Positions 40,604-42,405 of a stretch of 64,000 nucleotides of DNA are shown here, in pieces. The DNA is from Methanogenium marinum (GTDB lineage: Archaea > Halobacteriota > Methanomicrobia > Methanomicrobiales > Methanomicrobiaceae). A program made the translations under genes and the position numbers. The notes under the pieces are model-generated. The model did not search any database. It saw only the letters and a list, made by a program, of their open reading frames with translations, and was not told the DNA's origin. The stretch's first letter is position 1; every line of letters starts with the position of its first letter. Where the stretch lies: positions 496,001 through 560,000 of the forward strand of contig NZ_JAKELO010000002.1 in assembly GCF_028912405.1 (NCBI RefSeq), given 5' to 3'.

Positions 40604-40714
40604 CTAACTCAATTTTAATAATACATTTTTTCAGAGGATTTCAAAATTTCCCACAGGAATCTCATATTCTTCAATAACAATTTTTCCCGATTGAATCCTG
40701 CCCTCGTCACAGAC

Positions 40715-41460
40715 CTAACTGTTCCTCATATCCTTCGCCGTCCGAAAGAACTCTTTCGGCGAAAGCATCCCCGGCAGGGGAATGATGCCGGACGGACGTT
40801 CCATGTCGCAGACACCGGTTGTCCCCTTGTTGGCGGCATGTACAGCAGAGTGCAGCAGATGGCGGAAGCTGCCGCCATCATACAGGGCGAGTATATTGCT
40901 TTATTCGAACTTTTCGTCCTGAATTGCACCGGAAGCAATTTGGTTGGCGGAAAATCCCTGGGCGCAGGCACCCGAACCCACATCTGCATGGGAGACGTCC
41001 GGGAGCTGTGGGGTCTCATTCTTCCGCAATATACTCTTCTCTTGAAGAAGCGTCTCTCTATTCTCTCTTAGATTTGTATCATTCGGTTGGAATGCCCGGG
41101 TTTTATCTTGGCGGAAAGTGCCGCCATGCTGCTGCAAAGCTGCCGCCATTCCGCCAACGTCACCCCTGCCATTGGTGGGCGGGTGTTCCCCCATCACCTC
41201 CGCTGCCATCCCCGCCGGGTGATACAGAATCAAGCCAGACGACCACCGACCCGTTCCATCGTCGGTAGGCCTCCCGAGACCTCCTCCTCCTCCACTGCTT
41301 CGCAATGCCGGATGTGGTTGCATCACTCCGGGTTGCATGTCCGCACCTCCCCGTTCGGCATCATCAGCCGGTTCTTTTCTTCTGCGATTCGATTCTTACG
41401 GACACGCGTTGCAAACGGGTCCGGGACGTGGCTGAGAACATTCTGTTCTGTTTTGGTCAT
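40715..41460 (-). pseudogene. Series of overlapping or broken ORFs, possibly one decayed gene
   Basis: Frame A, 41460 to 41323 (45 codons, MTKTEQNVLSHVPDPFATRV...RTCNPE), has AGGAG 8 bases before its ATG. Frame B starts at 41323 overlapping that stop (TGATG) and runs 140 codons to a TAA at 40901-40903, ending IQDEKFE. Frame B's register continues past the TAA as protein-like sequence (LALYDGGSFRHLLHSAVHAA...MERPSGIIPLPGMLSPKEFF) to 40715. I recognise no family. One frameshift plus one stop would explain it as a single decayed gene of about 250 codons; coupled real genes are also possible. Confidence 0.4.
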
Positions 41461-41649
41461 GGAGTTTTGCTCCTGTGCACGAAGTGGTGTGCACAGAAAT
41501 TGATAGGACAGCCGGGATGAGAGAGAAAAAGTCTACGGAGTGTATGTAAAGGATATTTTATGTTGATCAGTTTGAGACAGTCGTGGAATTATTCGCAAAT
41601 TCACACCATTTAGAGGGAAGCTAGAGGGAAGCACATCTGGGATAAAATC

Positions 41650-41892
41650 CAAGTTTGCCACTTCACTCAATTTTCTTTGATTTTGGCAAAATAGAATTTG
41701 ACCGTTCCAGGTATTTGGAAAATTTTCTCTCAAAATATCTCCAATTTTGCCTTAAATTTCAGACGAAATTCGAATTTAGATAATCAAAGTTGCATTTTCC
41801 CCTCAAATCTAACCCAACTGTCAGATTTAATTTTGACATTTTTTGAGATTTCGGAACACAAAGCACTTCGATGAACCAAGTGGCAAACTTAG
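41650..41892. repeat. Imperfect inverted repeat in AT-rich DNA
   Basis: AAGTTTGCCACTT near 41650-41662 is repeated in inverse as AAGTGGCAAACTT near 41878-41890, with weaker similarity continuing on both sides. A loop of about 215 bases separates the arms. The arms could be two decayed copies of one element in opposite direction. Confidence 0.4.
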
Positions 41893-42201
41893 GTTGAATT
41901 TCACAAAGCGCTGAAAAATCAATTCCACTTTTTTTGATCCATGAAGACATTACGTGCAGGTACAGTGATAAAATCAGGAAAGAAAGGGATACAACAAATT
42001 ATCTCATTCAACATTATTCTGAATATTCATATATCCTCTAAAAATCCCCAAAAATGGCTAAAAACAAATTCTGCCAACCGTAACACAGGCATACGATAAA
42101 AATGGGAAAATAACACCAGATTACTCAGAAATACGATAAAAACAGTCTGAAACAGACTGCAATAAACAAAGTGACTAAAGAAACCGTTCAAAAAATTGTT
42201 A

Positions 42202-42274
42202 CGCCCAGGACGGAATTCGAATCCGTGTCGCAGCCGTGACAGGGCTGCATGATAGGCCCCTACACTACCTGGGC
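42202..42274 (-). tRNA. tRNA-Asp(GTC)
   Basis: Folds on the minus strand as 73 nt: GCCCAGG acceptor pairing with CCTGGGC, anticodon loop CTGTCAC (GTC), T-loop TTCGAAT and discriminator G, all right for Asp. No intron and no encoded CCA. It lies 24 bases downstream of tRNA-Tyr and is probably co-transcribed with it. Confidence 0.95.
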
Positions 42275-42298: not shown

Positions 42299-42405
42299 TC
42301 CCGCCTCCCGGAATCGAACCGGGGACATCGCGGTAGCCGCGCAGTTACCGTTGACCGGCAAACTATACTACAGCCGCGCACTCTACCAGTCTGAGTTAAG
42401 GCGGG
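42299..42405 (-). tRNA. tRNA-Tyr(GTA) with intron
   Basis: Minus-strand tRNA of 107 nt with acceptor CCCGCCT/AGGCGGG, giving the C1:G72 pair typical of archaeal tRNA-Tyr, and discriminator A. The anticodon stem is CGCGG...CCGCG, the loop CTGTAG...A (GTA). A 33-nt intron lies between positions 37 and 38, at about 42335-42367. The mature tRNA would be 74 nt. The TATA box at 42427-42433 sits 25 bases upstream. Confidence 0.93.
42335..42367 (-). other. tRNA-Tyr intron
   Basis: 33-nt insertion at the canonical 37/38 site. The intron's 3' end carries GCGCGGCT, which repeats the exon sequence just before the anticodon. The intron tail can therefore pair with the 3' half of the anticodon stem as well as exon 1 can. 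Confidence 0.75.

Follow-up and report, generated by a model that had tools for sequence, protein, structure and literature searches.

The region under consideration lies on the minus strand of a window of 64,000 nucleotides from the genome of Methanogenium marinum, this being the whole stretch of DNA that was analysed, and falls between a protein gene and a block containing tRNA-Asp and a 2-isopropylmalate synthase-like gene. It carries two overlapping open reading frames. The first, of 45 codons (41460-41323), has a GGAG ribosome-binding site ahead of it, and the second, of 145 codons (41338-40901), closes with a TAA at 40903-40901, beyond which its register stays open for 61 more codons as far as a TAG at 40717-40715. 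There is also a box, GGATATTTTAT at 41551-41561, which on the minus strand reads ATAAAATATCC. These frames, the box, the ribosome-binding site, the in-register continuation after the stop and the peptides quoted in the original prediction are all present in the sequence, and the reported enrichment in GC over the AT-rich flanks is borne out, with about 56% for 40750-41500 as against about 36% for 41500-42250. The first frame had been described as leading into the second by way of TGATG. TGATG is only the meeting point of the stop of the first frame with a later ATG, and the second really starts at ATGCAACCC within the first, in an overlap that is kept in intact relatives. Searches of the window frames against Pfam and PHROGs gave no match, and an Rfam scan of the region returned, above threshold, only two nearby tRNAs, after which a group II intron was dropped as a candidate. 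The second of these tRNAs, beside tRNA-Asp at 42299-42405 (minus strand), is apparently intron-bearing and is absent from the ARAGORN list.

The DNA of the region is repeated. The genome has further partial copies of 40604-41560, at 92, 84 and 78% identity, along with short pieces, and most of the region is repeated in three to four other places with 78-92% identity. Five of the six other Methanogenium genomes also have copies. Because of this recurrence the series of open reading frames is more than a product of chance. The 21 genomes from the family's other genera had no copy, and none turned up in a DNA search of phage and plasmid collections. The matches form two blocks, A (41549-41326, minus strand) and B (41277-40694, minus strand), which are usually found apart. 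The component parts of the region, with L and G numbers denoting loci and genomes respectively, are:

41461 to 41549, minus strand: leader of the parent operon, aligned with the leaders of intact L132, L139, L141, L142 and L134
41473 to 41480 (CTGTGCAC) and 41489 to 41496 (GTGCACAG): perfect 8-bp hairpin in the leader, adjoining the ribosome-binding site
41323 to 41460, minus strand: gene 1, 45 codons, open (MTKTEQNVLSHVPDP...), homologous to gene 1 of intact elements at 73-80% DNA identity
41278 to 41338, minus strand: gene 2 from its start (ATGCAACCC, overlapping gene 1) to the deletion junction at about 41277
40694 to 41277, minus strand: remnant of the primase-helicase gene, with register and order as in L007, L120/L149 and intact L070 and L024
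40692 to 40693: insertion junction, directly at the relic's truncated right end and the last point of homology to the orthologous intergenic DNA of G013

In its intact settings block A stands ahead of gene 2, gene 3 and a gene for a primase-helicase of about 960-1160 amino acids, and in several intact copies an Orc1/Cdc6 gene comes after the primase-helicase on the opposite strand. The context of the gene 2 start codon is kept in the intact elements, and the homology of block A stops at 41325. The parental TATA-like TTTTTCTTTATA has decayed in the window to TTTTTCTCTCTC (about 41529-41518). The ATG of gene 1 is immediately preceded by a hairpin, TTCTGTGCACA...GTGCACAGGAG, which is conserved in the window (41473-41496) and in L132, L139, L141, L142, L136 and L134 and is a possible operator or a possible means of translational control.

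Block B comprises the end of a winged-helix region (DREAYRRWNG in L007), a disordered linker and the start of a C-terminal Zn ribbon (PLPG...VCDEGRI), and both of the stops given above, TAA and TAG, fall within its register. In L007 (G010) a primase remnant (CLTVLDATVAEEICGIALKRRDHYFFFDREAYRRW), block B and the C-terminal Zn ribbon are read, in that order, in a single open frame, while in L149/L120 (M. cariaci) block B is preceded by a primase remnant spanning most of the gene, and the codon register is shared between the intact gene and the relic (DVGSNGSRLQQSGS in L070, DVGGMAAALQQHGG in the window). Since block B belongs to primase remnants at these loci and the window keeps the same register, the 145-codon frame represents the start of gene 2 fused to the primase-helicase linker. 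What had been taken to look like one protein is therefore a chimera, created by a deletion at about 41277, and the statement that it matches nothing known does not hold, as intact relatives match both blocks. The suggestion of recoding is not supported either: the TAA at 40903 is a CAA in the 92%-identical L002, and the position is sense in L007, which is open throughout, with frames varying among the copies. The accompanying suggestion of a restricted, decayed family was correct, in that the exact sequence is limited to Methanogenium and always fragmentary, with stops and non-triplet indels that differ from copy to copy. A recurrent deletion end at TTTGA/CGGGAG, proposed for L003, L008 and the window, was dropped, as the primase sequence of L003 and L008 runs on upstream, diverging.

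The insertion itself can be seen by comparison with relatives, where the upstream gene and the tRNA-Asp block are neighbours, about 400-690 bp apart as against 1.6 kb here. Homology to G013 breaks off at about 40692 and is picked up again at 42177, and the break at about 40692 identifies the truncated right end of the relic as the insertion junction. At the same locus relatives have no orthologue of the relic, the site being near-empty. The same 1.5-kb stretch also contains, at 41642-41895, a separate dispersed repeat of about 250 bp, which is MITE-like with terminal inverted repeats (AAGTGGCAAACTT...) and has copies at 86-91% in G010, G011 and G013.

Both blocks are homologous to the intact elements, the register is shared, stops interrupt it, the middle is lost, the spread is multi-copy and restricted to the genus, and the site in relatives is near-empty. 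The region is very probably a decayed, internally deleted copy of an integrated Methanogenium replicon. The intact parent is the operon of genes 1, 2 and 3 and the primase-helicase, joined in several copies by Orc1/Cdc6, and the window copy would have arisen through a deletion that brought together the 5' end of this operon and the 3' part of the primase-helicase gene, followed by insertion and then decay.

The primase-helicase, whole or in part, is found at 67 loci of Methanomicrobiales, with intact ones in Methanogenium. A DNA profile built from 18 block-B copies picks out, in Methanofollis, Methanoregula and Methanoculleus, the stretch of intact primase genes that encodes the linker. A search of viral contigs for the primase found none. 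Invariant among 36 distinct proteins are D-x-D (PIDLDP), SGNGAH and DTANFN-region motifs, which we take to be those of a prim-pol (AEP) domain. The helicase, of the AAA+ type, has the Walker A motif GNSGKGKTH and fold matches to MCM and to fusellovirus proteins (SVK1 A460 and an SSV7 protein), and the fold search also returns viral prim-pol/AAA proteins; a PDB sequence profile search gave no match to the family. HTH_23 was found in 3 of 12 members, a winged-helix-like segment is present in the AlphaFold model, and the protein ends with an invariant CxxC...CExC (Zn ribbon). Conservation is 0.3-0.4 in the linker as against 0.6-0.8 in the domains, and none of the 247 invariant positions lies within the linker. 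In the AlphaFold model of L117, which is of moderate quality overall (mean pLDDT 62.9, pTM 0.40), pLDDT is below 50 across residues 745-880 and mostly 20-35, such that this part is predicted to be disordered. Genus-wide, C-terminal pieces of the primase gene, consisting of linker and Zn ribbon, far outnumber other parts of the gene (for instance at G000:C2:1579665, 1914992, 2039025 and 2040008).

With regard to the rest of the element, no integrase was recognised among the genes shared by 11 Methanogenium elements. Common to six to seven of the Methanogenium elements are a protein of 170-204 amino acids (MADFIQTTNTKSAVRDLLVPI..., L132:15378-15992), for which there is no NCBIfam family and whose DNA is about 97% identical between copies within one genome, and a small protein that is coiled-coil-like in part and hydrophobic at one end, the gene for which lies about 5.1 kb downstream of the L132 primase start (minus strand). 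Just upstream of the intact primase elements in two species there is a long CRISPR-like array with a period of about 61 nt (L132:2806-8216, corresponding to G000:C2 at about 728.8-734.2 kb, and L136:6668-7837 in G012).

Unexpectedly, the linker DNA of the window carries an ordered array of short TTGGCGGCA-like sites. There are about 11 of them, they face both ways and they fall in every codon phase, with the following arrangement:

41108 to 41157, minus strand: left cluster, with direct sites at 41157 (TTGGCGGAA), 41149 (ATGGCGGCA), 41138 (TTTGCAGCA) and 41127 (ATGGCGGCA)
41116, minus strand: inverted site of the left cluster (TTGGCGGAA), the whole left cluster being found in intact genes as well
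41029 to 41088, minus strand: part of the block with the highest AT content (GC 35%), lying between the clusters, a candidate unwinding element
near 41028: weak single direct site (TTGCGGAAG), from the alignment
40944 to 40952, minus strand: single inverted iteron (TTGGCGGAA)
40830 to 40878, minus strand: right cluster, with a direct site at 40878 and inverted sites at 40867, 40857, 40847 and 40838, and containing the hairpin GATGGCGG/CCGCCATC

The order of orientations, ----+-+-+++ (four direct sites and an inverted one, then a direct, an inverted and a further direct site, and lastly about three that are inverted), is common to the genes and is retained by the relic. The motif differs from element to element, with TTTCAGCA in L085, TTGCAGCA in L117, TTTACAGCA in L095, TTGGCAGCA in L070, TTTGCAC[CT] in some Methanogenium and TTGGCGGCA in the window. 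The relic has 10 copies, compared with a mean of 4.5 and a maximum of 7 among 300 codon shuffles, none of which reaches the observed number. With shuffles that preserve amino-acid composition and codon usage, 26 of the 36 distinct intact genes exceed all 60 of their randomised versions, and the other ten, several of them from Methanogenium, do not (L065, L066, L067, L089, L102, L106, L133, L134, L141 and L142); in these ten the motif may have been missed or the origin may lie elsewhere. By repeat count the linker tops every other segment of its gene in 21 of the 36, and the 60-nt segment of lowest GC falls in the linker in 31 of them. In a scan along 40 primase genes the linker did not stand out by its folding energy, whereas it did by repeat count. 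Because the sites occur in all three codon phases and both orientations they do not amount to a peptide repeat. The layout of the array is conserved across Methanomicrobiales, the motif is not, and the encoded peptide provides no explanation. The original prediction had regarded this region as the best candidate in the window for something undescribed, a view that stands for the iteron-like array and falls for the protein.

There are two further aspects of the array. The primase gene of L086 (Methanoculleus Yes49-05) has a longer linker with extra copies of the right half of the array (20 sites). Block-B fragments with unrelated left flanks start at most about 12 nt from GACGTT, the left edge of the array, in L012, L144/L145, L147, L153, L146/L023 and L022, which suggests breakage or recombination there.

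The presence of repeated sites around an AT-rich middle, together with a primase-helicase that is self-contained, points to an origin within the initiator's own gene, and by analogy with the O gene of phage lambda the array is rather likely to be the replication origin of the element. In such a scheme the winged helix of the primase-helicase would hold it to the sites. Opening of the AT-rich middle, loading of the MCM-like helicase and the start of synthesis by the primase would follow, all of these steps taking place inside the initiator's gene. The Orc1/Cdc6 gene of several elements is a possible alternative initiator. Between elements, motif distance follows the divergence of residues 801-838 (the wing and next helix in the model), with a partial r of 0.55 after correction for the rest of the protein and with 0 of 500 permutations reaching this value, although linkage could produce the same correlation since 801-838 is encoded beside the array. 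The corresponding value is 0.09 for the HTH residues 736-800 and 0.36, and hence weaker, for the prim-pol domain. A broader proposal, to which we would give somewhat better than even credence, is that these are widespread methanogen replicons with an origin inside the primase-helicase gene and a two-orientation array whose motif changes with the wing, and that deleted copies of the window type, which retain leader and array, are remnants of a separate TTGGCGGCA specificity class represented only by relics in this genome, which is 81% complete.

Of the other explanations for the array, the one that fares best, though it is unlikely, is that it marks a place of recombination or integration, or else one end of a small MITE-like unit, mobile on its own, that sits in the linker. 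The complementary arms of the core are long and it behaves as a foldback (fold z -4.1), several dispersed copies with unrelated left flanks (L012, L144/L145, L147, L153 and nearly L146/L023) start at or close to GACGTT, and a right terminus, GGCAGGAT, is common to the window and L002. However, right ends are otherwise variable and often extend into the Zn ribbon, and no target-site duplication was seen. Across many genera the array occupies one position within the primase gene, in frame and with its layout conserved, which would not be expected of an inserted unit. A pure MITE core, consisting simply of the foldback and its arms, was rejected because in other genera the same array lies in frame within intact primase genes.

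A structured non-coding RNA transcribed from a dispersed repeat would account for both strands outdoing their shuffled versions in folding (z about -4) and for the matching of arm changes between subfamilies (GGCGG/CCGCC in place of TGCAG/CTGCA). It is nonetheless highly improbable: Rfam gave no such RNA for the region, the sites sit in a protein-coding gene of intact elements, and the motif changes identically at all sites, even at those that do not pair with one another, as would be expected of protein-binding sites evolving in concert. Almost no credence attaches to a genuine lineage-specific protein, intact or made by stop-codon readthrough, for although gene 1 is open, the primase register is open for 145 codons and L002 and L007 are partly open over the stops, the stops and frameshifts are copy-specific, the frame is a two-gene chimera, the parental TATA box has decayed and relatives have no orthologue at the locus.

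The relic explains the GC-rich, protein-like fragments that are strewn through Methanogenium genomes. As a relic it is ordinary; it is the embedded array that appears to be undescribed. The array provides a short and precise target, an origin candidate within an archaeal prim-pol/helicase gene with a motif that varies between elements, and it might serve in replicating vectors for Methanomicrobiales, for which, to our knowledge, there are few genetic tools.

The closest known relatives by description are the arCOG07809 elements, represented by Mpal_2033. Makarova et al. 2014 (PMC4158269) present these uncharacterised, putatively integrated elements as small, with large proteins of this architecture, and suggest that they are satellite viruses. 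An integrase and attachment sites are reported for several of them. The likeness, drawn from that description, extends to the primase, helicase, HTH and Zn finger, to an archaeal distribution that includes methanogens, to a fusellovirus-related helicase and to the lack of an obvious recognised capsid gene. The passages of that paper that were consulted do not describe an origin, iterons or the decay of genes in Methanogenium. In the literature searched arCOG07809 was named only in PMC4158269, nothing relevant was found on iterons in such elements, and there was no description of origin, replication mode or initiator specificity for elements of this type. The parent family is thus known in outline, and the array appears to be undescribed in the literature searched.

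A Rep-like hypothetical protein of the 4.4-kb plasmid of Methanothermobacter marburgensis (NC_014409) shares 25% identity over residues 388-722, that is over the helicase part only. The plasmid pRN1 (orf56/orf904) likewise encodes an archaeal prim-pol/helicase/winged-helix protein, although a distantly related one, and has its origin candidate near the gene, poorly conserved in sequence and conserved in form; there, however, a stem-loop of 100 nt, situated just downstream of the replication gene (PMC4234260), is the candidate, as opposed to an iteron array inside it. Phage lambda offers a parallel in arrangement, with iterons and an AT-rich region in the middle of the initiator gene O (ori-lambda, PMC7466680). 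The lambda origin has four iterons flanked by an AT-rich region, whereas here about 11 sites in both orientations lie on both sides of an AT-rich stretch, and while the O protein is unrelated, the putative initiator in the methanogen elements is itself a primase-helicase.
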